DNA of 64,000 nt from Bacteroidales bacterium (GTDB taxonomy: Bacteria > Bacteroidota > Bacteroidia > Bacteroidales > P3), in contig JAFRTM010000028.1 of assembly GCA_017439185.1 (NCBI GenBank), positions 1 through 64,000 on the forward strand, written 5' to 3'. Of this stretch, positions 471 to 52,100 are shown one piece after another; the stretch's first letter is position 1; each line of letters begins with the position of its first letter. The notes under the pieces are model-generated. The model was not told the origin of the DNA. It saw only the letters and a list, made by a program, of their open reading frames with translations, and did no database searches. The position numbers and the translations under genes are program-made.

Positions 471-496
471 TAGAGCATATCGTGGGATATGCTCTA
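471..496 (-). terminator. Terminator of the PCMD gene and sterol operon
   Basis: An 11-bp perfect stem (TAGAGCATATC pairing with GATATGCTCTA) with loop GTGG is followed on the minus strand by CTTTTTTTATCC. It lies 30 bases past the stop codon at 526, so it ends the leftward transcript. Confidence 0.8.
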
Positions 497-1532: not shown

Positions 1533-2333
1533 TTACCAGATAAAGGGAATCATGCGTTTGCGAGGTTGGGCTTTCATCTGGTCGCCGAACTCTTGCTGGT
1601 AGCGGTGGTAGATGCGGTGGGCACGGGGACCTAGGTTGGCGAATGTCCAGATGGCGAATACGGCGCCGGAAAGGCTCCAGGTGAGGATGGCGAAGCCGCA
1701 CCACTCGATGAACTCGCCGAAGTAGTTGGCGCTGGTGACGTAGCGGTAGAGGCCTTTCTGTGGGAGGTAGTGGTTGGTGTCGCCGGGTTTGCGGAGGTGG
1801 CGAATGACGTGGTCGGAGTTGATGTTGATGGCCATACCGGCAAAGAATATGACGGTGCCGATGATGAACTGAGGAGATGTGAACCAGGAGGTGTTATAGG
1901 TGGGGAGGGTGAAGAACCATCCGCCTTGCATCTGTTCGGGCTGGAAGAGCCATCCGCCTTGCATGAGGGCGTTGAGGGAGTTGAATGTCATACCCATAAG
2001 GGCGATGGCGAGGGGCATGCGGCTGTTGCCTTTGAGCATGAAGGGGAAGATAAAGGAGCGCTGGAAGTAGTGGAGCTCGAAGAGGCAGAGGAAGACGAAA
2101 AGTACGGCGTTGCCCTTATCGGCCCAGAAGATGTAGAATACCAGCATCAGGATGAATACGGGTGCTTCCATCAGTACCCAACCGAGTTTGTTGTTGACGG
2201 TGGGGCCCCAGCGTTTGGTGTAGAACTTGCCGTAGCCTGCATCGACGAAGAAGAGGCAGATGAACACGATTACGGCGGTGATGGTCATGCCGATAAGAAA
2301 CCAGTCGTAATGATTGAGTAAATAGTTTATCAT
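1533..2333 (-). CDS. Steroid 5-alpha-reductase (SRD5A-like membrane enzyme)
   Basis: 266 residues, about six to seven membrane helices. The start is ATG at 2333, overlapping the upstream stop as ATGA; an upstream in-frame ATG at 2378 would lie inside the previous gene. Hallmarks of 3-oxo-5-alpha-steroid 4-dehydrogenases are unusually clear: YGKF...RWGP near residues 34-44, Glu56 where SRD5A2 has its catalytic Glu57, HYFQRSFIFPF near 88-98, NSDHVIRHLRKPGDT at 172-186, ANYFGEFIEWCGFA at 202-215 and RKRMIPFIW at the end. These follow the human SRD5A1 pattern almost block for block. The family reduces the C4-C5 double bond of 3-oxo-delta-4 steroids with NADPH to the 5-alpha (allo) product. Neighbours suggest bile-acid or steroid-hormone substrates; the exact substrate is not shown by sequence. 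Confidence 0.88.
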   Translation of the reverse strand: MINYLLNHYDWFLIGMTITAVIVFICLFFVDAGYGKFYTKRWGPTVNNKLGWVLMEAPVFILMLVFYIFWADKGNAVLFVFLCLFELHYFQRSFIFPFMLKGNSRMPLAIALMGMTFNSLNALMQGGWLFQPEQMQGGWFFTLPTYNTSWFTSPQFIIGTVIFFAGMAININSDHVIRHLRKPGDTNHYLPQKGLYRYVTSANYFGEFIEWCGFAILTWSLSGAVFAIWTFANLGPRAHRIYHRYQQEFGDQMKAQPRKRMIPFIW

Positions 2334-3109
2334 ATTATTATTCCTTTTTCTTTTAATCGTTTTTCGGTCTCGTCCCACAGCCAGGCGGCGAGTTCGGGTT
2401 TTTGCCAGCGGTGGGGGATGTTCATGTGTTTTTTGCCGCGGAAGAGCTGAAGGGTGCAGTCGTTGGTGACGGCGTTGACGGCGGGAGTGGCGCCGCCTTC
2501 GCCGCTTTTGCAGAAGGGACGGAAGAGTGCGTCGGCGAGAGGGTCGTACCAGCGGTCCATGGATATCATCTTGCTGTTGACCACGCCCGGGTCGGTCATG
2601 TTGACGCGGTTGCCGGTGCGGCGGGCCAGTTCCTGGGAGAAGAGCATGACGGCGTATTTGGAGTTGCCGTAGGTGCCGAGCTGGCTGTAGTTGCTCTCGT
2701 TGACGTCGAAGAAGTCCTTGCCGAAGTGGGCGGTGTAGCAGGTGAGCGACACCGTGTTGGCTATGCGGAGGTCTTTGCCGTAGGCCTTGACCATGAGACG
2801 GCTGAGGAGGTAGGTGCCGATGTAGTTGGCGGCGGTGACGCGCTCGAAGCCGTCGGCGTTGCGGCCGTAGTCTTTAAGCATGGTGCCAGCGTTGTTGAGG
2901 AGGCCGTTGACGTGGATGCCGTCGCGTTTGAGTCCGTCGACGAAGTCCACGATAGAGGACAGAGAGTCGAGGTTCAGGCGGCGTTCGCCCTCGCGAGGTT
3001 CGCGGCGGGTGGTGCCGATGACGTTGTAGCCTTTTGCACGAAGCATCTTGACGGCCGCTTGGCCTACGGTGCCGGTGCATCCTGTAACCACTATTGTCTC
3101 AGTCTCCAT
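2330..3109 (-). CDS. Short-chain dehydrogenase, retinol-dehydrogenase-like; probable hydroxysteroid dehydrogenase
   Basis: 259 residues, classical SDR. Visible motifs are the nucleotide-binding TGCTGTVG (9-16), NNAG (72-75), Ser121 and the YGNSK active site (Tyr147, Lys151), followed by VNMTDPGVV. The order of motifs and the PGVV segment resemble the retinol dehydrogenase / WWOX-like branch. The gene overlaps the 5-alpha-reductase start by four bases, so the two are probably translationally coupled. In this operon the most likely role is NAD(P)-dependent oxidation or reduction of a steroid hydroxyl, for example at C3, but stereospecificity cannot be read from sequence. There is a 7-base gap from the upstream SDR. 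Confidence 0.75.
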   Translation of the reverse strand: METETIVVTGCTGTVGQAAVKMLRAKGYNVIGTTRREPREGERRLNLDSLSSIVDFVDGLKRDGIHVNGLLNNAGTMLKDYGRNADGFERVTAANYIGTYLLSRLMVKAYGKDLRIANTVSLTCYTAHFGKDFFDVNESNYSQLGTYGNSKYAVMLFSQELARRTGNRVNMTDPGVVNSKMISMDRWYDPLADALFRPFCKSGEGGATPAVNAVTNDCTLQLFRGKKHMNIPHRWQKPELAAWLWDETEKRLKEKGIII

Positions 3110-3116
3110 GGAATTG

Positions 3117-3902
3117 TTATCTTCTGAATTTGTTCCATATTTTCATCTCCAGCCAGTTGGGCAGGAGGCCGATGAGGACCGGCAGGTAGTAGTTCATGGC
3201 GCCCGGTTTTACAACGTGGCGCTTGTGGAGCATGCCGCGGATGGCCCAACGCACCAGGCGTTTGGGCGGGGTGATGACGCCGATGTTGACGCCAAGCTTC
3301 ATGAGGCTCGGCTTCAGGCGGTAGAGCGGAGTTGCCACCGCGCCGGGGCAGACGGTGGTGACGCCTACGTTGTAGGGACGCATCTCGAAGTACATGGACT
3401 TGGAGAAGTTCTTGAGGTAGGCTTTGGTGGCAGAGTAGAAGGTGATGCCTGGAGTCGGGAGCATGGCGGCCAGGGAGGACATATTCAAGATGTAGCCTTT
3501 CCGGCGCTGCTTCATGGCCTCTCCGAAGAGCATGACGAGTTTGGTGGGAGTCATTATGTGGAGCTGCAACATGGTGTTGGCCTTGGCGCGGCTTTCGGGT
3601 GTGAGTTCGGCGAAGAAGAACATGCCGGCGTTGTTGATGAGGATGTCGATTTCCATGCCTTTCTCCTGGCAGTAGTCCCAGAGTTCCTGTGCGGCAGTTT
3701 CTTTCGAGAGGTCCATGTAGAGGCCAGTGGCGGAGACGCCGTATTGTTCGGATATTTCTTTGGGGACGGTTTCCAGCTCTTCGCGCTGGATGGAGACGAT
3801 GAGCAGGTTGCAGCCTTTGGCAGCCAGCTGGCGGCAGTATTCGAGGCCCATGCCCGAGGTGCCGCCGGTGACTAAGGCTGTGTATCCTTTGATGTCTTTC
3901 AT
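3117..3902 (-). CDS. Short-chain dehydrogenase, 17-beta-HSD12/ketoacyl reductase-like
   Basis: 261 residues. TGGTSGMG (12-19), NNAG (90-93), Ser143 and YSATK (Tyr156, Lys160) form the SDR nucleotide site and catalytic triad; CPGAVATPLY follows. A C-terminal basic, amphipathic stretch (NWLEMKIWNKFRR) could touch the membrane. The sequence is closer to the hydroxysteroid dehydrogenase 12 / very-long-chain ketoacyl reductase type than to the following SDR, so the operon carries two distinct dehydrogenases. Together they could supply a 3-alpha and a 3-beta (or 3 and 17) activity, which is an inference from context. It lies 15 bases after the Old Yellow Enzyme gene. Confidence 0.75.
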   Translation of the reverse strand: MKDIKGYTALVTGGTSGMGLEYCRQLAAKGCNLLIVSIQREELETVPKEISEQYGVSATGLYMDLSKETAAQELWDYCQEKGMEIDILINNAGMFFFAELTPESRAKANTMLQLHIMTPTKLVMLFGEAMKQRRKGYILNMSSLAAMLPTPGITFYSATKAYLKNFSKSMYFEMRPYNVGVTTVCPGAVATPLYRLKPSLMKLGVNIGVITPPKRLVRWAIRGMLHKRHVVKPGAMNYYLPVLIGLLPNWLEMKIWNKFRR

Positions 3903-3917
3903 TGCAGGTGTTATAGG

Positions 3918-5162
3918 TTATTTGTTGGAGAGTTTAACAGCGGCTTCCAGTTGGTTGACCTCTTTCTCCAGTTTCTTGGGCAGGTTGTCCACGCATTTGT
4001 GGCATTTCATCTCGAGGGTGTACATACGTCCGATGCAGTAGTTGGAGTGGCCGCATTCGCTGCATTTCTGTTCGCCTGACTTGATCTTGTTCATGAAGTC
4101 GGTGTCGCGGACGAGTGTGCGTGCCATCTGGAAGGCGATGAAGCCCTCGTTGAGGACGGTGTCCATGTTGTCTTTGGAGCATACGCCGCCGACGTAGATG
4201 AGAGGCATCTTGACAGCGGCACGGAACTTCTTGGCCGTCTCGAGGAAGTAGAGGTCCTTGTAGGGTACGGTGGGGACCATCATGCGGCCAGCCACGGCGA
4301 GGCCGGCTTTGAGCCACCAGAACTTGCAGGTGTCCATGTAGTGGGCCATGGCCTTGAGAGGCATGGCGCCGTGCATGACGACCATGGGGGCGCGGCTGAC
4401 GAAGCCTGCGGTGAGGACCAGAGCGTCGACGCCGAGGCGTTCGAGTTCCTGAGCCACCTTGATGCAGTCGTCGACCTGCATGCCGCTGCGGAAGCCGTCG
4501 TACATGTTAGTCTTTACGACCACGGCGATTTCGCCGTTGGCAGCCTCTTTCACCTTCTTGATGACCTCCTGCATGAGGCGCATGCGGTTTTCGAGGGAGC
4601 CACCCCACTTGTCGTGGCGGTGGTTGGTGTAGGGAGAGATGAACTGGCTGATGAGGTAGCCGTGGCCGGCGTGGATCTCCACGCAGTCGAAGCCCGCCTT
4701 TTTGGCGAGGGTGACGGCGTTGCCGAAGTCGATGATGAGTTGCTGTATTTCTTCCTCTTTCATGCCGCGCACTAAGGTGGGGGAGTACATGTTGAAGCCC
4801 GTGGAGGCTCCGATGGGAGTCTGTCCGCATGTGGCGCGGTGGGTCATGTTGCCGCAGTGGCCGAGCTGGATGCTGGCCTTGGCACCTTCGGCGTGGATGG
4901 CGTCGGTGAGATTTTTAAGTTCGGGTACTATTTCTTCTCTCATCCAGAGTTGCCCGTCGAAGGAGAGGCCGCTACGAGAGACGGCGGCGTAGGCCACGGT
5001 GGTCATGCCGATGCCTCCGCGGGCCACGGCGGTGTGGTAGTCGAACAACTCTTTCGTAGGACGATTAGCCTTGCACATATTTTCAAAAGCAGCAGATCTT
5101 ATGCTACGGTTTCTCAATTCGATAGGACCTATTTTGCAAGGTGTAAAAATCTGTGACTCCAT
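3918..5162 (-). CDS. Old Yellow Enzyme-family flavin reductase; candidate delta-4-steroid 5-beta-reductase
   Basis: 414 residues, one TIM-barrel domain. Typical OYE motifs are present: QLGHCGNM, HAGHGYLISQFISP and NHRHDKWGGSLENRMR, plus the late (I)YVGGV phosphate-binding segment. A cysteine cluster follows at the C-terminus (C-x2-C-x5-C-x10-C-x2-C), suggesting a metal or Fe-S site, but the second FAD/NAD domain of long BaiCD/BaiH-type enzymes is absent. Family members reduce activated C=C bonds; relatives in gut bacteria act on 3-oxo-delta-4 bile acids and steroids to give 5-beta products. With the 5-alpha-reductase three genes downstream, this would give both A/B ring geometries. It is the first gene of the operon, with a promoter at 5224-5255. 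Confidence 0.78.
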   Translation of the reverse strand: MESQIFTPCKIGPIELRNRSIRSAAFENMCKANRPTKELFDYHTAVARGGIGMTTVAYAAVSRSGLSFDGQLWMREEIVPELKNLTDAIHAEGAKASIQLGHCGNMTHRATCGQTPIGASTGFNMYSPTLVRGMKEEEIQQLIIDFGNAVTLAKKAGFDCVEIHAGHGYLISQFISPYTNHRHDKWGGSLENRMRLMQEVIKKVKEAANGEIAVVVKTNMYDGFRSGMQVDDCIKVAQELERLGVDALVLTAGFVSRAPMVVMHGAMPLKAMAHYMDTCKFWWLKAGLAVAGRMMVPTVPYKDLYFLETAKKFRAAVKMPLIYVGGVCSKDNMDTVLNEGFIAFQMARTLVRDTDFMNKIKSGEQKCSECGHSNYCIGRMYTLEMKCHKCVDNLPKKLEKEVNQLEAAVKLSNK

Positions 5163-5223: not shown

Positions 5224-5255
5224 CAAAAGTAGCAAAACTATTGAAACTGACAATA
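5224..5255 (-). promoter_or_regulatory. Promoter of the sterol-reduction operon
   Basis: On the minus strand TACTTTTG (5231-5224) matches TAnnTTTG, and an ATTG-type -33 element lies 19 bases upstream at 5251-5255. It sits between the MFS terminator and the ATG at 5162, giving a leader of roughly 55 bases. Confidence 0.5.
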
Positions 5256-5288
5256 AAAATGCCCTGCTTTTTATTAACAGGGCATTTT
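5256..5288 (-). terminator. Terminator of the MFS transporter gene
   Basis: Eleven-bp perfect stem AAAATGCCCTG / CAGGGCATTTT with an 11-base A/T loop. A- and T-rich flanks on both sides could let it work in both directions. It separates the transporter transcript from the sterol operon. Confidence 0.75.
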
Positions 5289-7449: not shown

Positions 7450-7941
7450 TTATATGTGGTTTGAAGAATCGTCAAGATTTAGAGGGACCCCGTTGAGTTT
7501 AGCGGCTATGAGGTCATCGCCCTTGTAGGTCAGTTTCAGAGAAAAGAACGGCTGGTTGTCGAGCAGGAGTTTGAGGAATATGCGGTCGCCTTGCCATAGG
7601 TTGAGGTTGCCGAGTTGCTCCCGGTCTATCCATTGCAGGATACCTTCATTGCAGTCAGAGATGGTCCCGGACCACCCTGTAGCGCTGAACAGGTGCATGT
7701 ATTCGCAAGGCCAGATGTCGGAGATGAAGGTGACGATGCCACGATATTGCCATTGGGTGATTTTTAGAGATGTCTCTTCTTCTACCTCGCGGAGCATACA
7801 TTCGTCGGGACTCTCGTCAGGTTCGCATTTTCCGCCAACGCCTATCCATTTCCCGTGAGATGCGTCGTTGTCTTTGAGTGTACGGTGGAGCATAAGGTAG
7901 CGCTCGTTATCCGAGATGTAGCACAAGGTAGTCTGCTTCAT
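7450..7941 (-). CDS. Nudix hydrolase, 8-oxo-dGTP diphosphatase-like
   Basis: 163 residues. The complete Nudix box G-x5-E-x7-REV-x-EE spans residues 37-55 (Gly37, Glu43, Arg51, Glu52, Glu54/55), binding Mg2+ for cleavage of a nucleoside diphosphate linked to another group. The HRTLKDNDASHGKW(I)GVGGK context before the box is typical of bacterial MutT/YjhB-like proteins annotated as 8-oxo-dGTP diphosphatases. It is the last gene of a leftward operon: its ATG overlaps the stop of the C10 peptidase gene (ATGA). Why it is joined to efflux and peptidase genes is unclear. The substrate assignment is by family resemblance only. Confidence 0.8.
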   Translation of the reverse strand: MKQTTLCYISDNERYLMLHRTLKDNDASHGKWIGVGGKCEPDESPDECMLREVEEETSLKITQWQYRGIVTFISDIWPCEYMHLFSATGWSGTISDCNEGILQWIDREQLGNLNLWQGDRIFLKLLLDNQPFFSLKLTYKGDDLIAAKLNGVPLNLDDSSNHI

Positions 7942-9383
7942 AGTTTAACCACTTTCTTGACATTAGAACCGATACGAATGAAATACACGCCGGCGGGATA
8001 GTCGGAAAGGTTGAGAGTTCTATGATTGTCTCCTGCTTCGATAGGTATTGTGGCCAATATTTTGCCAGACATGGAGAGAATGTAGGCCGAGGTCGGCTCT
8101 TTTGCGGAATAGTTAAAGGAGGAAATACCGTTAGTGGGATTAGGGGCAATGGTAATGGGGGATTGAGAGTCGTCAACTATGGTTATTCTTTCAGAGGTGG
8201 TGTCGCTACTTGAGGTGTCGGGGACGGCAGGTTGAATGCCGGCCACTACGACTTGGAGAGAGGAGAAGTGATAGCCTCCGGCGTTAAGGTCGGAGGCGCG
8301 TAGGTTGCACCAGCCGTTGTATGAGCCGCCCCATCCCCAATTGAAATGGAAATAGCCGGTGTAGGAGTCGAATCCATCGCACACGAAGGCGTGTCCGGCA
8401 TCGGTGCCGCTGCTATTGTTGTCGTAGCCGCAGTAGAATACAGGACGGCCTGCATCGATTTCAGATTTGATAAACGAGCACCATGCTGTGTCGTCGCCAA
8501 GATAGGTGGAGCGGTAGACGACAGAGGCATTGGTGTCGTAGGAAAAGTTGTTGATCAATGCGTTGTAGGCATACTCGCCGACGCTGGTCATTCCCACCCC
8601 GCTACTGGTGGGTTTGTACTGCATCCTTACGGAGACGCCCACATGGTAACACAGTTTTGCTACGGCATATTGCTCAACTTCGTTGTCGCTATAGTAGAGG
8701 TCATATGGCATGTTTTCCCAATCGTAGTAGGCTGTGTCAAAGTTTAGAGAAATACGTGTGGCGCATTGCTGGCAGTAGTATGTTATAGAACCGTGTCCTT
8801 GTGTAGGGTGAGACCAGAATCGCATGATTTGGGACAATGCGGTAGCGACACATCCTACAGGCGCAGGCTCGTCGTCAAAGACAGGGCAAAGTATGTTGAA
8901 AGGCCAGAACTGGTCCCATCGAGACTCAAGGAGGAAAGGATTAGTGGGTTTTGGGGCAATAACGGTCGTGGCATCGGAAAGGCTCTGCCATTGCTGTCTG
9001 ATTTTTTTTGTAGGGAGAATTGCGTTGTTCTGGACATAAGATATAGCTCTTGCTTGCTCGGCAATATATCCGGCGAAGGCAGGAGGAATGCTACGGGAAT
9101 CGATTTGAGAGTCGAAAGAATAAGCGATGATAGGAGCAGAACAGTCAGATCCTGATACAATAACATATCCACCTGAGGGGTTGTTGAACATATAGAGTGC
9201 GGCAACTCCGAGGTCGTCGTTGAGGACAGTCCTGGCGAGTATTAGATTTTCAGCCGATGTGGGGACACCGCGACTTGAAAGAAATGCGCTTGCAACATTT
9301 CGGGCTGTAGTGCTATCAACAGTCCCTGCCTGAGTGGCTAGGGCGGCAAAAATCAGTAGAAAGGATAGCCAAATATGTTTCAT
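7938..9383 (-). CDS. C10 family (streptopain-like) cysteine peptidase with T9SS signal
   Basis: 481 residues. A signal peptide (about residues 1-19) is followed by an inhibitory propeptide region (about 20-140) and the catalytic domain. The nucleophile is Cys178 in GCVATALSQ; His331 in AGHAFVCDGF and the FHFNWGWGG segment complete the streptopain-type site. After a Ser/Thr linker near 395-405, residues about 410-481 form a type A T9SS sorting domain (ITIAPNPTNGISSFNYS..., ending VYFIRIGSNVKKVVKL), so the enzyme is likely exported and surface-attached or released. Relatives include interpain and PrtT. It starts 3 bases after the RND pump stop and overlaps the Nudix gene, so it belongs to the efflux operon. 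Confidence 0.9.
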   Translation of the reverse strand: MKHIWLSFLLIFAALATQAGTVDSTTARNVASAFLSSRGVPTSAENLILARTVLNDDLGVAALYMFNNPSGGYVIVSGSDCSAPIIAYSFDSQIDSRSIPPAFAGYIAEQARAISYVQNNAILPTKKIRQQWQSLSDATTVIAPKPTNPFLLESRWDQFWPFNILCPVFDDEPAPVGCVATALSQIMRFWSHPTQGHGSITYYCQQCATRISLNFDTAYYDWENMPYDLYYSDNEVEQYAVAKLCYHVGVSVRMQYKPTSSGVGMTSVGEYAYNALINNFSYDTNASVVYRSTYLGDDTAWCSFIKSEIDAGRPVFYCGYDNNSSGTDAGHAFVCDGFDSYTGYFHFNWGWGGSYNGWCNLRASDLNAGGYHFSSLQVVVAGIQPAVPDTSSSDTTSERITIVDDSQSPITIAPNPTNGISSFNYSAKEPTSAYILSMSGKILATIPIEAGDNHRTLNLSDYPAGVYFIRIGSNVKKVVKL

Positions 9384-9386
9384 AGG

Positions 9387-12300
9387 TTAGATTGTTTTCT
9401 TTTTCATTTTACGTTGCGCATACCAGGCGTAAACAATGGGTACGACAAATATATTGAGCAAGGTGGAGGAAATAAGCCCACCAAGCACCACTATCGCCAT
9501 CGGGGCTTGAATCTCATTTCCAGCACGGCTGGCGGCTGCAACCATGGGAATAAGAGACAGGGCTGTGGTTAATGCAGTCATGATGATAGGATTCAACCTG
9601 TCGCAGGAACCTTTCATTATGGCCTCGCCGAGAGAAGTTCCCTCTGCGGACAGGGATTGGTATTTTGCTATTAGTAATATGCCGTTGCGAGTGGCAATGC
9701 CGAAAAGTGTGATGAATCCAATGATGGCAGGAATACTGAGAACTCCCGAAGTGCATCTTACAGCGATGACTCCACCGATAAGGGCAAGAGGCAGGTTTAG
9801 CAGCACAATAAAAGAGAGGGACAGGCTGCGAAACTCGGTATACAGAAGTAGGTATATTACTGCGAGAGACAGCAAGAACACAAGGATGAGGGTGCGAGTG
9901 GCACTGTGTGCATTTTCAAATTGTCCAGAATATTCTACACGATAACCCTCAGGCAGAGTCACATTGTTGTCAACAATTTCTTTTATGTCATCAACCACGC
10001 TTACAGCATCACGTCCGCTTACATTGGCGGATATCACAAGTTTTCTCTGTACGTTTTCGCGTGATATGGTGTTGGGTCCTCCAACCGAAACAATCTCGCA
10101 GACTTCCGATAACGGAACTTTCCCGCCAAGAGGAGAGTCTATGAGAGCGTCGCACACATCGTCGATGGTTGGACAGTTGTGTTCACCTTTTGACATCATT
10201 ACCAAGTCAAACGCCCGTTGCCCTTCATAGATTTCGCCTAGTTTTTCCCTTTCAAAGGCTTGGGCTACAAAGTGGTTGAATTCCTCGATAGTGATTCCAT
10301 ATTGGGCCAACCTGTCCCGGTCGGCACGCAGTTGCAGTTGAGGCACTTCTGTCTGTTGCTCCACATTTACATCCACAAGGCCTTTTACTTCCGATGTGGC
10401 TGCTTTTATGTTGTTGCCTAGCATATAGAGCGTACTAAGGTCGTTGCCGAATAACTTTATTGCTATGGTGGCTTGTGTGCCGCTCACCATGTGCTCAATT
10501 CTGTGGCCGAGAGGTTGTCCGATGCTTACGGCCAAACCGGGGATGGTTCCCAGTCGTTGGCGGACTTCGGAGAGGAATGCCTCTTTTGACCTGCCTTGGA
10601 GTTTGAAATTTACGTCAATCTCGGCACCATTGGTGGCTTGGGAATGTTCGTCGAGTTCTCCGCGGCCTGTCCTTCTGGCGGTGCTGGTTACTTCAGGAAT
10701 GTCCAATAATTGGGACTCTATAAGGTTGCCAAGTCGGTTGCTCTCTTCGAGAGAAATGCCCGGTTTAGCTACGGCGGCAATGGTCAAGGAACCTTCGTTG
10801 AAGTCGGGTAAGAACCCCCTTCCAAGAGTGAAAAGGAGCGCTACGGCCGCCACCAATGCAACTGCCGTTGCAGTAATGATGACAGTTTTGTGGCGCAAGG
10901 CTTTTTGTAATGCTTTCTCATAAATTTTTGCAGTCCATAGGCTTATTTTGCTTTCGCTAGACTTGCGAGAAAGATATTTGTTGTCGGAGAGTAGTAGTTT
11001 GCACATAAGCGGAGTCACCGTCAGTGCTACCACAAGTGACATGAACAGAGATATGAGATAAGCTATGCCGAGAGGTTTCAGCATTCTCCCTTCTAACCCA
11101 CTTAGGAAGAATAGTGGTACGAAGGTTATCATTATGATAAGGGTGGCGTGAATGATGGAGGAACGAATTTCAGAGGAGCCGAGGAATACCACCTCGTAGG
11201 CGCTTCGCCTTTCTTCCGGTGGCAATTGGTGGTTCTGCCGTAGTCGTTTATATACGTTCTCCACATCGATTATGGCATCGTCAACCAAAGACCCTATGGC
11301 AATGCACATACCGCCAAGGGTCATGGTGTTTATCTCCAATCCCATAAGATGAATGCACAGGATGGTTCCGAGCAGTGATAGAGGTATGGCAATGATAGAT
11401 ATCAGTGTTGTGCGGAAACTTCCGAGGAAGAGGAGTAGTATGACAACGACACATATAGCCCCTTCGAGGAGTGCTTTCCCTACGTTGCCTACCGAAGAAG
11501 AAATGAAGTCTGCCTGGCGGAATATTTTTGTGTTCATCACCACGTCTGGAGGAAAACTCTTTTCAATGTTGGCCAGGTTCTTCTCTATGTTTTTGGTGAC
11601 TTCAAGTGTGTTTATGTTTGGTTGTTTTGAAATAGAGATGATGATGGCGGGAGATCCGTTCATTGAGGCATAGCCTTGTTTGGTGGCATTGCCTATAGTG
11701 ATGTCGGCAACATCAGCGAGGCGAACTTTGTGTTCGGTATCGCATTTGACAAGACTCTTGCCCAATTCGTCGAGATCGCAGGTCCGTGCCATCCCTCTCA
11801 GTGAGTATTCGTTGCCATAGTCGCGCACGACACCGCCTATGGAGTTGGAGCCGAGGGAGCGCGTTACGGCTTCAATCTCGTCCATGGTTACCATGAATTT
11901 CTTCATTCTGATGGGGTCGGCAATTATCTGGTATTGCTTGTAATCGCCACCAATAATGGTTACCTGAGACACCCCTCCGGTGCCCAATATGGCAGGTTTC
12001 ACAACCCAGTCTGCGAGTGTCCTCAGCTCTTGCATTGAGGTGTGTACGCCTAGTGAGTCGCCGCGGACGCTGTCGGTTTGCAGTCCGACAAATAGGATTT
12101 CACCCATCACACTGCTTTGGGGAGCCATTACCGGTGTGATCCCCTCAGGCAACTCGCTTGCAAGCGTAGACATCTTCTCGCTCACTATCTGACGGGCTTT
12201 GAATGGGTCCATGCCCCAATCGAATTCTACAAATACAAACGAACTTCCCTGCATTGAGGTGGATCTTACCCGTCGCACATTTGTGGCACCATTAACAGCG

Positions 12301-12512
12301 GTTTCTATAGGAAACGACACAAGGCGTTCAACCTCTTCGGGTGCCATGCCATGGGCATCGGTCATAACCACCACGGTGGGTGCGGTCAGGTCGGGAAATA
12401 CGTCGATGTCGGTTTTTCTGCTGGCCCAGATACCCGCCACTATCAGCAGTCCTGCGGCGAGCAGGATGAGGAGTTTGTGGTCGAGGCTATATTTTATAAT
12501 CTTATTCAGCAT
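9387..12512 (-). CDS. CusA/CzcA-family heavy-metal RND efflux pump
   Basis: 1041 residues, full length for an HME-RND pump: a helix near residue 15, a large periplasmic domain, eleven further helices and a second periplasmic domain. The proton-relay motif GGMCIAIGSLVDDAIIDVENVYKR in helix 4 carries the paired acids of CzcA. The segment RTGRGELDEHSQATNGAEI is typical of the Co/Zn/Cd/Ni branch rather than Cu/Ag. The pump takes metal from the periplasm or cytosol and passes it through the adaptor and outer-membrane channel encoded just upstream. It ends in a basic tail (AQRKMKKKTI). The 22-base gap from the channel gene and 3-base gap to the C10 gene mark a single operon. The exact ion is not certain. 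Confidence 0.88.
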   Translation of the reverse strand: MLNKIIKYSLDHKLLILLAAGLLIVAGIWASRKTDIDVFPDLTAPTVVVMTDAHGMAPEEVERLVSFPIETAVNGATNVRRVRSTSMQGSSFVFVEFDWGMDPFKARQIVSEKMSTLASELPEGITPVMAPQSSVMGEILFVGLQTDSVRGDSLGVHTSMQELRTLADWVVKPAILGTGGVSQVTIIGGDYKQYQIIADPIRMKKFMVTMDEIEAVTRSLGSNSIGGVVRDYGNEYSLRGMARTCDLDELGKSLVKCDTEHKVRLADVADITIGNATKQGYASMNGSPAIIISISKQPNINTLEVTKNIEKNLANIEKSFPPDVVMNTKIFRQADFISSSVGNVGKALLEGAICVVVILLLFLGSFRTTLISIIAIPLSLLGTILCIHLMGLEINTMTLGGMCIAIGSLVDDAIIDVENVYKRLRQNHQLPPEERRSAYEVVFLGSSEIRSSIIHATLIIMITFVPLFFLSGLEGRMLKPLGIAYLISLFMSLVVALTVTPLMCKLLLSDNKYLSRKSSESKISLWTAKIYEKALQKALRHKTVIITATAVALVAAVALLFTLGRGFLPDFNEGSLTIAAVAKPGISLEESNRLGNLIESQLLDIPEVTSTARRTGRGELDEHSQATNGAEIDVNFKLQGRSKEAFLSEVRQRLGTIPGLAVSIGQPLGHRIEHMVSGTQATIAIKLFGNDLSTLYMLGNNIKAATSEVKGLVDVNVEQQTEVPQLQLRADRDRLAQYGITIEEFNHFVAQAFEREKLGEIYEGQRAFDLVMMSKGEHNCPTIDDVCDALIDSPLGGKVPLSEVCEIVSVGGPNTISRENVQRKLVISANVSGRDAVSVVDDIKEIVDNNVTLPEGYRVEYSGQFENAHSATRTLILVFLLSLAVIYLLLYTEFRSLSLSFIVLLNLPLALIGGVIAVRCTSGVLSIPAIIGFITLFGIATRNGILLIAKYQSLSAEGTSLGEAIMKGSCDRLNPIIMTALTTALSLIPMVAAASRAGNEIQAPMAIVVLGGLISSTLLNIFVVPIVYAWYAQRKMKKKTI

Positions 12513-12534
12513 TTATGTTCCGACGATTTAGTGT

Positions 12535-13716
12535 TTATAGGTTGTAGGATTCAAGTTGCAGGACCGTTTGTTCCAGTTCGTGGGCTATTTCGAGTATTGA
12601 TATTTCGCTATCATGATAGAACTCTACCTGTCGAAGGTAGTCTTCCAATGAAATTTCGCCTGCTTCGAAAGCTTTCAGTAGCAGGTCCTCGCTGTTGAAT
12701 GTGTCGAATGTCTGTTGGAGGTGCTTGAGGTTCTGTTGCAATGCTACGGCTTTACGATAGAGCCCTTTTAGATGGTTGTATTGTAGAGCATATTCGTTGT
12801 CATATTCGGCTTGAGCTGCAGTCTCGGCGAGGCGGGATTTTTTGATGGTCCCTTTTTGTCGCCAGAGGGGAAGTGTTGCTTGTAGGGCGAAGCCACGGTA
12901 GGTGTCGCCTACCACGTTCTCGCTCACATATCCTGCGGCAAAGCGAGGCCACCATTCGGATTTTGCCAAGGCGGTCTGCTCTTTGTTTAGAGTTTGCTTC
13001 TGCCTTAGTGCTGTAAGAGCAGGACTCTTTTCTGAAGCAACAGCAAACCATTCTTCGTAGTTTTCTGGCAGTGGGGTAGGGGAGAAGGTGTCTTGCACAA
13101 AGGCTAAAGGTTTGCCTCCATTTAGCATCTGCAGGTCGTCGGCCATCATGTCTCTCTCGGCTTCTGCCATGCGCAACTTGTTTTGGGTGGCGGCCAAGTC
13201 CATCTGCACTCTGTTGTATTCTAAAATTGTGCACTCGCCTGCCTGAAGCTTCTTTTCGAATATTTTGCTCAGCTGTTCGGCGCTTTTCACGCAGTGGCTG
13301 TAGAGTGTTACGTATGCATTGTAGTATACCATATCCGAACACACCCGTTGGGCTTCGGTAAGCAGCTCTATGCGGTGTCGGTTATAGTCGGCGTTAGCAC
13401 ATTCGGACATTAGGTGGCGTATGCGTGCACGATGGACATATACTTGTGGCATCTCGAACGGTTGCATTACTTTTAAGTCCCACCGTTTTCCGTTATTCTG
13501 AGGATCTGGCCAGAAGTAACCGAACTCTACTTCCGGATTGTCTAACAGGGCACCGGCTGTGGCGTCAGCCTGGGCTGCATCACGCTCTATGGCTATGGCA
13601 CGGAATGCAGGACTGTTTACCATAAGGGTGTCCAATACCCACTGATAATGATTCTGCGACACAAGGGAGGCGGTCGCAGCGGTTGTCAGTAATATCAGTA
13701 TCAGTGTCCGTTTCAT
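12535..13716 (-). CDS. TolC/CzcC-type outer-membrane efflux channel
   Basis: 393 residues with a signal peptide (MKRTLILILLTTAATASLVS). The body is the two-fold alpha-helical repeat of outer-membrane efflux proteins: long heptad-like helices rich in Ala, Glu and Gln (for example NKLRMAEAERDMMADDLQ and the C-terminal ISILEIAHELEQTVLQLE) with a beta-barrel insert around PLWRQKG. Three copies would form the exit duct for the CzcA-type pump downstream. It lies 33 bases after the adaptor gene and 22 bases before the pump. Confidence 0.85.
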   Translation of the reverse strand: MKRTLILILLTTAATASLVSQNHYQWVLDTLMVNSPAFRAIAIERDAAQADATAGALLDNPEVEFGYFWPDPQNNGKRWDLKVMQPFEMPQVYVHRARIRHLMSECANADYNRHRIELLTEAQRVCSDMVYYNAYVTLYSHCVKSAEQLSKIFEKKLQAGECTILEYNRVQMDLAATQNKLRMAEAERDMMADDLQMLNGGKPLAFVQDTFSPTPLPENYEEWFAVASEKSPALTALRQKQTLNKEQTALAKSEWWPRFAAGYVSENVVGDTYRGFALQATLPLWRQKGTIKKSRLAETAAQAEYDNEYALQYNHLKGLYRKAVALQQNLKHLQQTFDTFNSEDLLLKAFEAGEISLEDYLRQVEFYHDSEISILEIAHELEQTVLQLESYNL

Positions 13717-13749
13717 CGTGTTTAAGCCGTGGTATTCTTCAATAATCTA

Positions 13750-14910
13750 TTAATGCACATGTCCTGCGTGGGGGTCCAAAGCACCGGCACCTTGAGCCAG
13801 TTTCAGCATTATGGCACCTTTGCTCACTACCCGTTCACCAGCTTTTACGCCTTCTTTTATTTCGGTCTCTAGTCCGTTGCTCAGCCCTGTCTGCACAAGC
13901 CTTTTTTCGTAGAGTTCTTCTGCAGTGTTAACAAACACAAACTTCTCGCCCATCTCTTCCACTATTCCTTCGTTGGGTAGCATCAGGGCATTACCGTCTC
14001 CTGTTGTCACTATATATATCGTTAGAAATGAACCAGGCAGGAGGCCTCCGGTGTTGCGGATGCGGAAGGTGACGGGAATTAGTGGGTTCGCAGTGCCTGT
14101 GGCTTTGCCGTACCCTACGAGGTTACCATCCAACTCTTCGAGCGACTTCACCTCCCCGTTGGGCATCACTATATTTGCCCCGGTAATTTCTTTAAGTTCG
14201 TTATAGTGGCGCGATGGTATTTCGGCTTTCAGGTAGAGGTCTTTGTTTTTGGCTACGGCTACCACTGCCTGTCCTGCCTCAACGAAACCGCCGTTGCTTA
14301 CCATTATTGATGTTATATATCCACTGATCGGGGCTTTCACTACGGCACCAGTGGCCGAGAAGTTCCCTTGCAGGTTGTCGTATTCGGCTTTTGCCCGTTC
14401 ATAGCGGGCACGGGCCTGCTCAACATCGCTTTCGGTCACTATTCGGTCTGCGGCAAGTTGTTGTTTTCTTTCGTATGCTGTGCGTGCTGCTTGGTATTCG
14501 GCTTCCTCCTCTTTTCTCCTCACGCTCATGTTTCCGCTAGCCATACCGCTACTGCTGATACTCATCAGTCGCTGGCCGGCTGTCACATAACTTCCTTCTA
14601 CGATATACTCTTTGTCCATTACGACTACGCCAGATGCGCTTGCGGTGGCTATGCGCTCGTCGCACTGCGTGGGCATTATCTGTGCGGTGGCCCTTATCGC
14701 TCCGCTACTCTTCTTTGCCTCCAGTGTTATAACTTCAACACCTGACAGTTCTGCTTGCTCGTCGTGGAAGTGTACTGTGTTGGGTGGTAACTGCTCTAAT
14801 TCGTCGTGGTCGTGATGATGATCGTGATTGTGATGGCAACCGGCAACACCCATAACTGCAGCCACTACGGCTGCAATTATGATGCATTTTATATTTTTGA
14901 AATATGTCAT
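13750..14910 (-). CDS. RND efflux periplasmic adaptor lipoprotein (CzcB/CusB-like)
   Basis: 386 residues from ATG at 14910. A longer frame starts at 14964 but that would put the promoter box at 14962-14969 inside the gene, and it would bury the signal sequence. The N-terminus is a lipoprotein signal (IIIAAVVAAVMGVAGC) followed at once by a histidine-aspartate cluster (HHNHDHHHDHDE), a likely metal-binding tether. Then come a biotinyl-lipoyl-like half motif, an alpha-helical hairpin (residues about 140-195, EEEAEYQAARTAYERKQ...), the second lipoyl half (VVKAPISGYITSI) and beta-barrel and proximal domains. The C-terminus is again His-rich (DPHAGHVH). It couples the pump to the channel and may sense or deliver metal. 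Confidence 0.87.
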   Translation of the reverse strand: MTYFKNIKCIIIAAVVAAVMGVAGCHHNHDHHHDHDELEQLPPNTVHFHDEQAELSGVEVITLEAKKSSGAIRATAQIMPTQCDERIATASASGVVVMDKEYIVEGSYVTAGQRLMSISSSGMASGNMSVRRKEEEAEYQAARTAYERKQQLAADRIVTESDVEQARARYERAKAEYDNLQGNFSATGAVVKAPISGYITSIMVSNGGFVEAGQAVVAVAKNKDLYLKAEIPSRHYNELKEITGANIVMPNGEVKSLEELDGNLVGYGKATGTANPLIPVTFRIRNTGGLLPGSFLTIYIVTTGDGNALMLPNEGIVEEMGEKFVFVNTAEELYEKRLVQTGLSNGLETEIKEGVKAGERVVSKGAIMLKLAQGAGALDPHAGHVH

Positions 14911-14961
14911 TATGTTAGGTGTCAGAGTGTTAGTGGCGGGAGACAATTGTATTACAACTTG

Positions 14962-14969
14962 CAAATATA
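14962..14969 (-). promoter_or_regulatory. -7 box of the metal efflux operon
   Basis: TATATTTG on the minus strand matches TAnnTTTG and gives a leader of about 45 bases to the ATG at 14910. The upstream stretch is A/T-rich and shows no clear -33 TTTG, so the promoter may need an activator. Confidence 0.5.
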
Positions 14970-31035: not shown

Positions 31036-34000
31036 ATGAGTCAAAAAGTATTAGGTATAGATTTGGGAACGAATTCATTAGGAATCTGTTTGAGAAACCC
31101 TGACAATGGTAAAAATATTGTTGATCAACAGGAATTTTTTGGTGTAACAATATTCAAATCAGGTGTTGGTCGCGATGATAAAGGCGAGTTTTCATACGCT
31201 GCTATAAGGACATCGAAGCGTTCAGCTAGGAGATTGTATCAGGCGAGAAAGTATAGGATTTGGGCAACATTGCAACTTTTGGTAGACGATGGTTTTTGCC
31301 CAATGACTCAGGACGAGTTAAATCAGTGGAAAGTATATGATAAAGAAAAAGGATATTTCAGAAAATATCCAGTTGGAGCTGTTCCCTTTGAGCAGTGGGT
31401 GAGGCTTGATTTTAATGGTGATGGAAAGCCTGACTATAGCAGTCCGTATCAGTTAAGGGCTGAATTGATAGAGAATGTGTTGGATATGACTATCCCAGAG
31501 AATAGGTATAAGTTTGGAAGGGCTATGTATCATATTGCCCAGCGAAGGGGTTTTAAGAGCAGTAAAGGAGAAACACTGAAAGAGGCAAAGGAAGATGTGG
31601 ATGTGTCTAATATAGAAATAACCAGCGAATTGAAAAAGTCGGAAGAGAAGAAGTCTAAAACGTTGGTTACGTATATGGAGGATAATGGTTTCTGCACAGT
31701 AGGTTTGGCCTTTGCACATTTAGAAAGAGAGGGGGTAAGAGTTAGAAACAGCGAATATCAGGCAGTCAGGTCGCAATATATGGAAGAAGTGGATTTGATA
31801 TGTAAGAAGCAGGGATTAGATAGAACCCACGCTGAATTATACCGGAAACTTGTTAGTACTAAGAGAGGGGAGGGCACGATATTCTATAAGCGTCCTCTTC
31901 GTTCTCAGAAAGGTTTGGTCGGGTATTGTACATTAGAGCCTAATAGTAGGCGCTGCCCTGAAAGTCATCCCGAATATGAACTGTTTAGGGCCTATTCATT
32001 TATTAACAACATAAAATATCGTATAGACAATAGTGAGTCATGGAAAAGTCTTGATGATAAGCAGAGGGAATCCTTGTTCAATTCATTGTTTACACGTGTT
32101 AAAAGTACGTTCAAATTCCAAGAGATACGAGAATGGCTGGAAAAAAATGTGGTAAGTGTTCCGTTAAGTTACAAACAAAAGACGATAAACTATCAAGATT
32201 ATGTTACGGTTGCAGGATGTCCGGTGGTTAGTAGATTGAAGAAAATACTTGGTGATGACTGGATGTCAGTTGAAGTTGAAAATGGGCAGGATAGAACTTC
32301 CGTGAATAAAGTAACAGGCGAGATTGTGAGCCATCGAGTTAAGTACAACTATGAAGATCTATGGCACTTGTGTTATACTTGTGACGACATGGAAGACTTG
32401 GCAGAAATTATCGGATTGAAAGAGACGTTTGATAGTAAGAAAAAGAATGAAATGATGCATCTTTGGGGTGCGATGAGGGAAGGCTATGCCACGCTGAGCT
32501 TGAAAGCGATACGCAAAATTTTGCCATTTCTGAAAGAGGGTATGTTATATAATGAAGCTGTAAGTTTTGCGAAGTTGCCAGAAATTTTGGGAGAAGAATG
32601 GGAAAAGAACAAGGAGAGTATTATAGAGTCGTTGCGCACCATTTCAAAGGAGGCGAGCCGTTGTCGGCAAGTATGTGGTATTGCAAACGCTTTGATTGGG
32701 GATTACAAAGCAAATGAGGATTATGTTTTAACGAGAAATGAAGAGTATCTGCTTGATGATGGGGACAAGAAGAAGGTGACAGAAAAAATTATCGACACGA
32801 TTAGTCAGAAACGGTGGGATGCGTTGGGGATAGAAAATCAAATTCTCTTGCAGAAGGAGGTCGAGGACTTATTGCAGAAGTTCTTCTATACAAAAGAACG
32901 GAGTTACTATCGATTACCCAAGGCAAACGAGATAATAAAAGACTGGTTGGCGGAACACTACCCACACATAAAACGGGAGGTGCTCGATACAATGTACCAT
33001 CACTCGCAAATTGATCGTTTTGCGAAAGGAATCCCGCAAACAATAGAGGTTGACGGAAAATTGATGAGTGTAATGCAATTAGGGACGCCAGATATTGGCT
33101 CCATCAAAAATCCGGCAGTAATGCGCGCATTATACGCTTTAAGAAACAATCTAAACCATCTTTTACGCGAAGGGATGATTGATGAGGAGACGAGGCTGGT
33201 GGTAGAAACGGCACGTGAGATGAATGACGCAAATTGGCGTAGGGCGATAGAATTGTATCAAAAAGAGCGAGAAAAAGAGAATGAGGCCATTGCTAATATA
33301 ATCAAAGAATTTCGTCCAGGATATTCAGACGAGGATATAGATAAAGGCAGGCTTCTTTTTGAGCAGAATATTGTGAGTGCAACAACAAAAGAAGGTAAAA
33401 TTAAGGCAGAGAATTTTGCTAAAGATATGACAAAATATAAGTTATATCAGGAACAGAAGTTCCGTTGCATTTACACGGGGAAAAGTATAAGTCTTAACGA
33501 ATTGTTTAATGATAATGTAGTGGATATAGAACATACAGTGCCACGTAGTATATCGTTTGACAATTCGCTTGCCAACAAGACAATATGTGATGCGAGTTAT
33601 AATCGTAAGGAGAAGAAAAATCAGATACCTTCACAACTGGGGAATTATAATGCCATATTGGAAAACTTGAAGCCGTGGGAAGAAACCCTTAAACATACCG
33701 AAAAACAGATTGAAATATGGCGGGATAAGGCGAAAACAGCGGCTACTGTTGATTATAAAAACAAGTGCATACAGCAACAACATCTTTGGCAGTTAGAGCA
33801 CGATTATTGGCAGGCTAAACTTAAAACATTCTATCTAAAAGAAGAAGATCTGACATCGGGGTTCAAGCATAGCCAGTTGGTTGACACCCGAATCATTACA
33901 AAATATGCTTTTCATTACTTGAAGACACTGTTTGAACGAGTAGATGTACAGAGAGGAGAGATGACCGCTGTTTTCCGTAAAATACTCGGAATTCAAAGTG

Positions 34001-35306
34001 TTGACGAGAGGAAAGATCGTAGTCGTCATAGCCATCACGCCGTTGATGCTGCAGTGCTTGCACTCATTCCTGAGTCAAACAAAAGAGATGCTCTTGTAAA
34101 ACTATTTTATGACAGAGAAGAGGCCAAGAAGAATCATGATGAGGATGGTTTTAGGAAGTATAATGAAGAATTGCAATTAGAGCGAAAAAAGATGTTTCGT
34201 GGTGATTCAAACGCCTTGGTCAAAATGATAGAAAACGATATACTAATAAATCATACCACTAAAGATCAGTGTTTGACGCCAGCGTATCGTAAGAGGCGCA
34301 TAGGTGGAAAATTGATAAAAGGAGAAGACGGTAAGGAACAGTGGGTACGGGGAGATAGTATTAGGGGTAGTTTGCATCAAGATAAATTCTATGGAGTAAT
34401 TAGCAACAAGAAAGAACTCAGGGTTGTTGTCCGTAAAGAATTAAATGGTTCTAATGGATTACTTGCAGGATTTATTAAGGAGGCAAAGGACAAAAAGAAG
34501 TTTGATGAGGCGTTTGGGGTAATTGTTGATAAGCGATTGGGTGATATGATAAGACTGCAATTGGAACAGTTGTTGGCCAATCCTAACTGTTCTAAATCAG
34601 AAATTCTTGCGACTCCATTTTATATGCTCGATAGAGAAGGCAATGCTATAAAACAAGGTAAAACAGGCAGTCCTATTTCGCCAATTCGTCATGTGAGATG
34701 TTATGCTCGTGCAGGTCGTGGAGAATTGAGAAAAGATACATTACTGACCATTAAAAATCAAACGTATATCTCCAAGCAAGAATATAAGCGTACATACTAT
34801 GCCCAAACCGATGACAATTATCTGTGTCTTCTGTACGAAGGAGCAGTAAAAGGTTCAATTCAACGTGAGATGAATTTGATAAGTTTGTTTGAGATGTCGT
34901 GCATTGTAAGAGGTGGTGTGGCTATGCGAGATGTTAATGCTTTGCGGTTAGAGCCCGCATACTCGACATTCGGGAAAAATAAACTGCCACTTAGAGCGTT
35001 GATTAAACGTGGTACCAAAGTTATATTCTATGACAAAATGCCGGAAGAAGTGAACGATTACGACAAGGAAACGATGAGTAAGCATTTGTATGTAGTGTAC
35101 AAATTCAATAATATGGGTACGGCTACACTATATCTAAAAAGGCACATTGAAGCAAGGACGGAAACACAGTGTGAGAAAGGTGAGAAAGGTACAATATTTG
35201 ATAGTAACAATGCTAAATCCTATCTAACGCTTAAGGCGAATGGACTTAAGGCTCTAATCGAAGGTGTTGACTTTACTGTGGATGCTGTAGGCAATATAGT
35301 GATGCT

Positions 35307-35310
<4 letters not shown>
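31036..35310 (+). CDS. cas9: Type II-C CRISPR endonuclease Cas9
   Basis: 1424 residues, in the usual range for Bacteroidetes Cas9. RuvC-I is GIDLGTNSLG (Asp9); an Arg-rich bridge helix follows (RTSKRSARRLYQARKYR). RuvC-II has Glu724 in VVETAREM; the HNH domain has DIEHTVPRS with His833 plus Asn847 and Asn856, spaced as in SpCas9 (H840, N854, N863); RuvC-III has HHAVDAAV (His1001, Asp1004). All catalytic residues are present, except that the HNH Asp next to the catalytic His is Glu832. It cuts DNA matched by the crRNA-tracrRNA guide. The gene is visibly more A/T-rich than cas1 and cas2. It overlaps cas1 by ATGA; no cas4 or csn2 is present, hence type II-C. Confidence 0.96.
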
Positions 35311-49136: not shown

Positions 49137-52100
49137 ATGTTTATGGAACAAAATATACGCAATTTGATTGAAAAGCGGAGTTTGAAGAGAGTGGCGGTTG
49201 GAATGGTTGCATTGCTTGCCATGGTGTTTGTCGGCGGCCGGGCTCAGGCCCAGTGCGACCAGCTTGACGGGACCTCGTTCACCGTCAATATTATAACCGC
49301 CAACACAGCGAGCCTTGAAATAGATTGGAGTATGGACGACTTCAACGACTCGTTCAACGGCACCATCGCACTCTATTTCACCAACACCACCACCAGCCAG
49401 ACCTTCCGCTTCGAGGACAACAGCGGTTTATTCACCACCAGCAACATGCCGGTGGGAAACTACGAGTGGTATTTCCGCGGCTACTGCACGGGAGGCGACT
49501 CGACCGTTGTCATCACCGGCTCGGACTTCTACATCTGCGACGAGGGTGTGACCGTCACATCGATTACGGTAACCCCTGACTGCAACGGCAATGAGGGTAA
49601 AATTGAGATCAGCGCTATATGCGAATGCGACAACAATGCCGTAATCAGTTACAAACTGGTCGATTCCGGCGAGACAAACTACACCGGACACTTCGAAGGG
49701 CTCTCGGGCAACGAATACTACAACTTCTCCATCTCCAACGAAGGCAACGGTCTCACCGTCGATACCACCATCTATGTGCCCGAAGGCTCCACCTGTGACA
49801 TAACCGCCACAGGCACTCCCTCTCTCACCATCCTCGACTACTCCTATGAAGACTATGAGAACTCAGGCAACTTCGGCGAGTTCTACTACAGGCTCGAGAT
49901 ACCGAGCGTCGATGGCACGCCCGAAGCCATCGAGGTCCAATACGGCCTCGTGGGCAGCGACTCACCCAGTAGCGTCTATTACAATCCCTCCACCGGATCC
50001 GGCTCAATCAAGATCCCCATCACCGCCAAAGGCGACTGGGAGGTGAAGATGCGCGCCCGCTGTTGCGGCGGATCCTTCCCGGGCAACATCCCCGGCGACT
50101 GGTTCCTGATCGACACCATACACCACTACCCCAACTTCAGCATATATACCGAAGGCTCCTGCTACCGCATACCGCCGGCTCAGTCCGAAAACGGCTCCGC
50201 CGAGATAAGCTTCATCCCACCGCACAGCGTCTCCAGCAACTCGTCGAAGATGGGAATCCGTGTCTTCCCCGTTGATAACCCCGACAATATCAAGATCGAT
50301 ACCGTTGGCGACTATGGCATGGCCGGCGGCACCATCGAGCTCTCCAGCCTCACCGAGGGCGAATACAAGGTGTCTGTATATATCACCGACGGTCTTGAAA
50401 ATTACAACAATACCTACGATGCCTATCTCGACACCACCTTCACCGTCGAAAGCCGTATTAAGGTGACCATCCAGAACGACAGCTCGACCTTCTGCGCCAC
50501 CGACTCGGTCCTCTACCGCGCCATCGTGACCGGCGGAACCGAGCCCTACGATTTCGAGTGGGTCGCATACGAGACAACTTTTGGCCAATTTGACGACTCC
50601 GTATGGGTAAACTTCGATATTGCATCTTCTGACGACCCAGGAGTAACCGTGACCGATGCCGACGGATGTTTTGTTGAAACACCAATCCACGTCAACCTCC
50701 TCCCCGCCTACACCCAGGAGACCGATTACTATTACGACTCCTACACCTACAGCCGCAACCGCTACATCATCGCCAGCCAGCTCCCCTTCACCCTCCAGGA
50801 CTTCACCTTCGACGGAAGCGAAACGAGTGCCAGCCACGAGTTCACCTTCCAGACCGCCAAGGGCTGCGACTCGATAGTACATATTGATTTCACTCAAAAA
50901 CCCGGCATAGCCCTTCCGAGCAGCGGCAACCTCGACACCACCATCACCACCGGTGTTGATGTGTACGACGACGGTGGCTTTAGCTCCGCCGCCGCGCTCC
51001 ATGCCGACCGCACCCTCACCCTCCACGCCCCCGAGGGCAACACCCTCGAGCTCCAACTCACCGGTAGGACATTCGATCTCGGCGAGGGCGAAGCGCTCTA
51101 TGTCTATGACTACAACGGAGTGAACGACAACGCGCTCCTCTTCGAATACCGTCAAGGCATGAACCCGCCGAACATGGATTTCACCTCCAACTCCCGCTCG
51201 CTCACCTTCCGCTACGTCACGGGCAACAGCTGCGCGCAAGGATTCATAATGACGGTCAACACGAAAGACATCAGCAACGAGTGTCTGCCGGTGTATAATG
51301 TGACGTATTCTCTTATGAGTGGGGGTGAAACATACTCATATTGTAATATGCACTGGGAATACAGCGGCGTAGCCGACAGTTTCGAGGTGAAGTATGCAGG
51401 ACTCAAATGGAATGATGACACAGGCAACTATGACACCGTATATGGACCTTACACACGATACGAAGCAAGTGGTTCCACCGCATCGCAAGCCAGTTGTCGC
51501 AATGACCTGGATGCTTTCGGAAGGGTGGAGATCCGCGCCATCTGCGGAGAGGGCGACACGAGTGAGGTAACCAGCTTCGACTGGACTCCTCACCAACCCT
51601 TGAAAATACCCGCCAGCGGCGACACCATAGTGACTCTCGACTCGACAATTTTTAATATCAATGTATATGATGCCGGCGGCGGCAGCGGCAACTACGGGGA
51701 TAACTACAACGGCAGCCTTATAGTGAAACCTGCCGACGGATATAGGTTGGTAATTAGTTATTCTTCGCAATACAACCTGGAATCAGAATATGACTACCTC
51801 TATATCACCGACGACTATGACGGCAGCGCTGTCAATACATATCAAATCGACACTCTCACTGGCGAAGGCTCGTTAAGTGATACTTATGACTTTCATATAT
51901 ATTCCCGTTCGGGCGGCTTCAAGTTCACCCTCACAAGTGATGTGAGTAACAATAATGCAGGAGTGGAACTATACCTTAGTCAATTAAAACTCGACGAATG
52001 TCTGCCCTCCTACAACCCGAAGGCGGAGCGACGGCTGATGGACATCACTACCTACTATGTAATTACCGATGCCGGAATCTATGGATCCACCGCGGGCGAC

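Follow-up and report, generated by a model that had tools for sequence, protein, structure and literature searches.

Steroid 5-alpha-reductases (5AR) of gut Bacteroidota have been described as members of small gene clusters. In Parabacteroides merdae, the 5AR gene is clustered with a predicted 3-beta-hydroxysteroid dehydrogenase and an NADH:flavin oxidoreductase, and disruption of the 5AR stopped the formation of allolithocholic acid derivatives (PMC10382948). Clusters of 5AR, an OYE-family flavin reductase and 3-beta-hydroxysteroid dehydrogenase in Bacteroidota have been reported to make isoallolithocholic acid. Here we analysed a 64,000-nucleotide stretch of a Bacteroidales genome (assembly GCA_017439185.1, contig JAFRTM010000028.1; hereafter the window), which carries genes for an OYE, two short-chain dehydrogenases (SDRa and SDRb), a 5AR and a PCMD-domain protein. 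The 5AR, OYE and SDR families are the same as those of the P. merdae cluster (PMC10382948), and the 5AR stands adjacent to an OYE and an SDR, the arrangement used here to define the class. The initial annotation had placed the locus in the Bacteroidota 5AR cluster class, and by gene content our analysis agrees. In Parabacteroides massiliensis the cluster is limited to 5AR-OYE-SDRb and resembles the three-gene one of P. merdae, whereas the order in the window is OYE-SDRa-SDRb-5AR-PCMD; SDRa and PCMD are extra, and the OYE belongs to another group of the OYE tree. The window operon is a longer version of the known 5AR cluster with a different gene order. We judge the chances to be about even that this five-gene cassette flips the steroid A-ring between 5-beta and 5-alpha, with a 3-oxo-delta-4 intermediate and with plant steroids in the ruminant foregut as its likely substrates. 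It possibly also acts on bile acids.

Judged by its sequence, the 5AR is a genuine SRD5A-type protein, for which 5-alpha reduction of a 3-oxo-delta-4 steroid is predicted. It matched Pfam Steroid_dh at 1.5e-39 (135.8 bits against a cut-off of 22.6). The best solved structures were 7c83, a 3-oxo-5-alpha-steroid 4-dehydrogenase that we take to be a bacterial protein (1.8e-55), and SRD5A2 (7bw1, 1.4e-36), to which 84 of 228 aligned residues were identical. E56 and Y89 align with Glu57 and Tyr91 of SRD5A2, presumably its catalytic pair (with a numbering offset of 4), and do not vary in an alignment of 16 rows that includes the window. BaiP and BaiJ of Firmicutes also carry out 5-alpha reduction, the reaction predicted in the window, but they are FAD-dependent oxidoreductases and not SRD5A membrane proteins (PMC9645264).

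The OYE matched Pfam Oxidored_FMN (3.8e-59). Its top NCBIfam score was to BaiCD (195.4 bits), tied with mycofactocin OYE 2 (195.3 bits) and far under the BaiCD cut-off of 825 bits, the best stretch covering profile positions 3-257 of 642. It has the OYE domain in common with BaiCD and the other Fe-S flavoenzymes of the bai operon, but lacks their FAD/NAD(P)H domain, for which the Pfam match and the length of the protein leave no space, and its Cys spacing is different: C-x5-C-x10-C, compared with C-x2-C-x3-C at the same place in 2,4-dienoyl-CoA reductase. The three residues, Cys370, Cys376 and Cys387 near the C-terminus, were kept in 79, 79 and 78 of 79 rows. The catalytic-type Tyr is Y169, preceded by G168 and followed four residues on by Q173, each of the latter two found in 78 of 79 rows (with one X). 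The ci2350 family of gut steroid-hormone 5-beta-reductases shares the OYE family and the catalytic-type Tyr but differs from the window's OYE at G168 and Q173 (PMC12238238). By our own mapping through alignment to 1ps9, these two residues match neither clade at the two sites reported to separate hormone from bile-acid reductases.

Both SDRs exceeded the Pfam adh_short cut-off (SDRa, 7.2e-43; SDRb, 4.1e-13), and SDRa has TGxxxGxG and YxxxK by eye. The initial annotation had named an OYE, two SDR partners and an SRD5A-type reductase with two quoted motifs and Glu56. These families were all recovered, and both motifs and the glutamate are present; the 5-beta assignment that it gave the OYE is kept here as a candidate role. 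It had also taken the second SDR to be a distinguishing feature, which did not stand: the set of 5AR, OYE, SDRa and SDRb occurs in 31 of 60 relative loci with flanks and is therefore common.

The fifth gene encodes a protein matching Pfam PCMD (PF13201) over the cut-off at 6.8e-22, and it also agrees with the PCMD fold; the PCMD structures 3hbz, 4het, 3s30 and 4jrl are 16-21% identical to it in alignment. In three genomes of the genus, and in 19 of the 120 protein clusters listed, PCMD is fused to 5AR in one open reading frame. Close PCMD matches (E<1e-90, which keeps 14 of 26 PCMD matches) were found in 14 of the 19 family genomes with a strong 5AR and in none of the 171 others (Fisher 2e-17, a guide only, as relatives are not independent); at E<1e-50 the counts were 16 of 19 and 4 of 171. 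In 10 of the 14 genomes the close PCMD lies on the 5AR contig. The window genome has a single PCMD by family search, the operon's own. We found no earlier description of PCMD as a fifth member of the 5AR cluster, and the papers listed by a literature search combining PCMD with steroids do not mention the PCMD domain, which does not prove absence.

Fusions of PCMD with another gene seem to have arisen on more than one occasion. In eight proteins (P0152-P0154, P0156-P0160) an operon-type PCMD is fused to an SGNH hydrolase, with a hydrophobic segment between them in the two examined. One genome (G150) has a short, weak PCMD-like match (C87:3287-3382; 32 residues, E 3.7e-4) on a small 5AR contig and a more distant PCMD elsewhere. 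Two other apparent fusions were set aside: a single-member frame joining 5AR and OYE (P0181), in which by eye both the end of 5AR and the beginning of OYE are truncated, is a possible assembly product and was not counted, and the extra length of a 721-aa "5AR" (L122) is an upstream open frame.

The four genes from OYE to 5AR lie head to tail on the minus strand. Their span (1533-5162), the spacing of 15 bases between OYE and SDRa and of 7 between SDRa and SDRb, and the 4-base overlap of SDRb and 5AR (2330-2333) are as first annotated, but that span ends before PCMD (1482-526). For the 5AR we take position 2333 (ATG) as the start; an upstream GTG opens the 281-aa reading frame that was listed. 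We scanned the minus strand for TAnnTTTG, presumably the Bacteroidales-type −7 promoter consensus, from the OYE start to the PCMD end and found no site inside; a second site lies upstream of OYE at 5240-5233. Because a promoter-like site precedes OYE, none lies inside and a terminator-like hairpin follows PCMD, PCMD is a likely member of the operon. The unit probably comprises five genes, PCMD included, on the strength of promoter and terminator scans, which are no proof of a transcript. The hairpin upstream of OYE was not flagged by the terminator consensus scan. The window begins at contig base 1, and little is visible beyond PCMD on that side. An MFS gene upstream (6938-5325) was considered as the operon's transporter and rejected: matches to it occur in 57 of 59 genomes of the genus, and the hairpin and the promoter-like sites separate it from OYE.

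Features of the steroid A-ring operon and its borders, listed in the direction of transcription (window positions)
Feature	Position	Strand	Remarks
Terminator-like hairpin and T run	5256..5288	-	Between upstream MFS gene and OYE; fold of 5300-5245, −18.4 kcal/mol
Promoter-like −7 element TACTTTTG	5224..5231	-	Fits TAnnTTTG, Bacteroidales-type; ATTG 19 bases upstream; predicted operon promoter
OYE-family flavin reductase, 414 aa	3918..5162	-	Candidate 5-beta-reductase / delta-4 dehydrogenase
SDRa, classical short-chain dehydrogenase, 261 aa	3117..3902	-	Candidate 3-hydroxysteroid dehydrogenase, from context
SDRb, divergent short-chain dehydrogenase, 259 aa	2330..3109	-	Counterpart of the single Parabacteroides massiliensis SDR by family and neighbours
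5AR, predicted SRD5A-type membrane steroid 5-alpha-reductase, 266 aa	1533..2333	-	Family match, residues
PCMD protein, 318 aa	526..1482	-	Signal-peptide-like start (by eye); CBM-like beta-sandwich model
Terminator-like hairpin and T run, 3′ of PCMD	471..496	-	Terminator scan; −15.0 kcal/mol

Within the family, 5AR was matched in 21 of 190 genomes and strongly in 19, the strong set omitting two matches (E 6e-4 and 7.7e-4). The genus is represented by 120 genomes; a strong 5AR occurs in 13 of them and a close OYE in 14, which include all 13. The remaining one, G013, has a close OYE (C13:5087-6313; 71%) without a 5AR match; this genome is 76% complete. Sixty relative loci have 5AR flanked by 5 kb or more on each side; in these, OYE was present in 54, SDRa in 44, SDRb in 37 and PCMD in 22, and 16 of the 31 loci with all four enzymes also had PCMD. 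SDRa and SDRb were assigned in relatives by best match to the window's own, and five loci repeating contigs of named loci were dropped. Clustering of 1189 open reading frames at 94 loci gave no further recurring neighbour: only two clusters exceeded 18 loci, both core families. The cluster found at 18 loci is read from the other strand and has the look of an antisense shadow; by eye, and without a family search, the smaller ones are unrelated or housekeeping genes.

In L029 (9796-12958, minus strand; genome G048) the SDRa match downstream of where OYE starts is broken into two incomplete pieces, with 64% and 25% coverage, and upstream of OYE in the same genome there are a full-length SDRa (73.8%) and an SDRb fragment, a partial duplication. 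Bacteroidales-type 5AR was also seen on contigs titled Proteobacteria, Myxococcales or Pseudoflavonifractor (L081, L092 and L094, the last with OYE and SDRs), which are possibly mis-binned.

The ecology of the cluster points away from the usual bile-acid story. In a tree of 79 OYE rows (quick method, midpoint root), the window's OYE belongs to a group of 43 rows (support 93), made up of every foregut-labelled row (17), 3 rows from horse faeces and 23 without a label; the OYEs of Parabacteroides, Sanguibacteroides, Barnesiella and Muribaculaceae form a separate 29-row group (support 98). The record titles of two genomes of the same genus give the rumen of water buffalo and of yak as the source. 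Of the 80 named loci, 19 have PCMD no more than 8 kb from 5AR: 11 of the 19 foregut loci, 1 of the 25 from hindgut or faeces, and 7 of the 36 with another or an unknown habitat. Habitat classes were read from record titles, with reindeer, red deer and duodenum loci put under "other". Thirteen of the 19 foregut loci have the organ named, and six of the RUG series were taken as rumen from the search listing; 14 of the 25 hindgut loci name caecum, colon, rectum or faeces, and the other 11, from Heminiphilus, Sanguibacteroides, Parabacteroides, Barnesiella and the SC03 and Mgla series, were counted as hindgut by genus or series name. In a recount with organ or faeces in the titles alone, PCMD was near 5AR in 8 of 13 foregut loci compared with 0 of 14 hindgut loci.

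Epismilagenin, smilagenin and tigogenin are stereoisomers, 3-alpha or 3-beta and 5-beta or 5-alpha. An OYE, a 5AR and two hydroxysteroid dehydrogenases would yield such a mixture from a 3-oxo-delta-4 intermediate. In sheep, sapogenins are reported to give epismilagenin, smilagenone, smilagenin and tigogenin, and the rumen converts diosgenin to epismilagenin (PMC10385484, PMC5535167). Titles and abstract openings of the papers listed for rumen sapogenins with gene terms name no responsible genes, which does not prove absence. A survey of rumen metagenome-assembled genomes names eight bile-acid enzyme families in the relevant section, none a 5-alpha-reductase, with the complete list (82) in its supplement, and the term 5-alpha-reductase has 0 occurrences in its main text (PMC11193847). 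The available portion of a study on dairy cow bile acids has nothing on 5AR (PMC9750977).

In the proposed route, one or both SDRs would oxidise the 3-hydroxyl, and the OYE would hydrogenate or dehydrogenate the C4-C5 bond on the 5-beta side. Using NADPH, the membrane-bound 5AR would reduce the delta-4 bond from the 5-alpha face, and an SDR would reduce the 3-ketone to a 3-alpha or 3-beta alcohol. PCMD is likely periplasmic, beside the 5AR, and may capture glycosylated steroids. A bolder version, which we consider unlikely as a whole, takes the operon as a rumen machine for the A-ring of plant steroids that would account for the epimerised sapogenins (epismilagenin, smilagenin, tigogenin) of saponin photosensitisation and for ruminal allocholic acid, the 5AR-fused PCMD gripping the sugar of a steroid glycoside and handing the steroid to the reductase across the membrane.

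Bile acids are a serious rival substrate. The operon may be an ordinary A-ring operon for bile acids, like that of P. merdae, and turn intestinal secondary bile acids into 3-oxo-allo and isoallo forms, a reading that we find possible though rather doubtful. The three shared core families argue for it (PMC10382948), as do the 58% identity of the 5AR to that of P. massiliensis and the formation of allocholic acid by rumen communities given bile acids. No 5AR position separated foregut-side (39 rows) from hindgut-side (27 rows) proteins at the thresholds used, and none of the 15 OYE positions that differ between the two groups is a charge change; because of this there is no sequence sign of another substrate. 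On the other side, the rumen is reported to be normally free of bile acids, and the window OYE falls in the other tree group, among foregut rows. PF02275 (BSH family) has no match in the window genome, a weak point against bile acids; bile-acid modifiers may lack BSH. This family was over the cut-off in 4 of the 19 strong-5AR family genomes (2 strong), compared with 10 strong in the 171 others.

Action on host steroid hormones or dietary progestogens is very unlikely in our view. Little hormone would reach the rumen, which counts against it, and by our mapping G168 and Q173 of the OYE stand in place of the N and S reported for the hormone clade, yet SRD5A2 is the closest human homologue among the solved structures seen, and gut OYE enzymes are reported to reduce progesterone (PMC12238238). 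It is equally improbable that the reductases act on a non-steroid lipid made by the cell, of the polyprenol or enoyl-CoA type. The enoyl-CoA reductase 22of is also among the SRD5A relatives of the 5AR, but its match (2.1e-5) is far below that of SRD5A2, and the patchy occurrence of 5AR is unlike that of a core lipid pathway. The promiscuity of OYEs counts in favour of this possibility.

Several observations, together with the lack of group-specific 5AR positions, weigh against a plant-steroid cassette of the foregut. PCMD lies on a different contig from 5AR in four genomes (G032, G181, G182, G183), its proximity to 5AR in foregut loci is neither exclusive nor universal, and 5AR stands without any partner in 5 of the 60 flanked loci. 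The three horse-faeces rows sit within the window's OYE group, and seven hindgut or unknown rows join that group at support 98. Because habitat needs just three changes on the OYE tree, the pattern there is a placement and not a statistical test, and an independent-pairs comparison of habitat with PCMD had three pairs only. The OYE is without a BaiCD-type reductase domain, so the electron donor of this candidate enzyme is not implied by its sequence. In a search of solved structures for SDR identity, no hydroxysteroid dehydrogenase was named among the best 60 of 278 rows for SDRa or in 12 of 12 rows for SDRb. Epimerisation of sapogenins continues in caecum and colon and is not foregut-specific (PMC10385484, PMC5535167), and in the rumen survey another enzyme cluster is put forward as the source of the secondary bile acids (PMC11193847).

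Steroid epimerisation in the rumen is known chemically, and no responsible gene is named in the literature passages at hand. With a compact gene set that predicts the stereochemistry of these products, the question would become open to direct test, and the answer could matter for saponin poisoning in sheep, faecal stanol markers and bile-acid feed additives. The 5AR-PCMD fusion would supply a functional partner for a PCMD protein.

Elsewhere in the window, a Cas9-type protein (31036-35310, plus strand) matches HNH_4, RuvC_III and Cas9_a, and a type II CRISPR system is therefore likely present. An RND efflux trio (9387-14964, minus strand) consists of an AcrB-like pump, an outer membrane efflux protein and a HlyD-like adaptor, and a C10-family peptidase with a Spi inhibitor prodomain and a type IX sorting tail lies at 7938-9383 (minus strand). 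A 3913-aa protein (49137-60878, plus strand) has fn3, SprB-like and Listeria-Bacteroides repeat matches and a type IX secretion tail.

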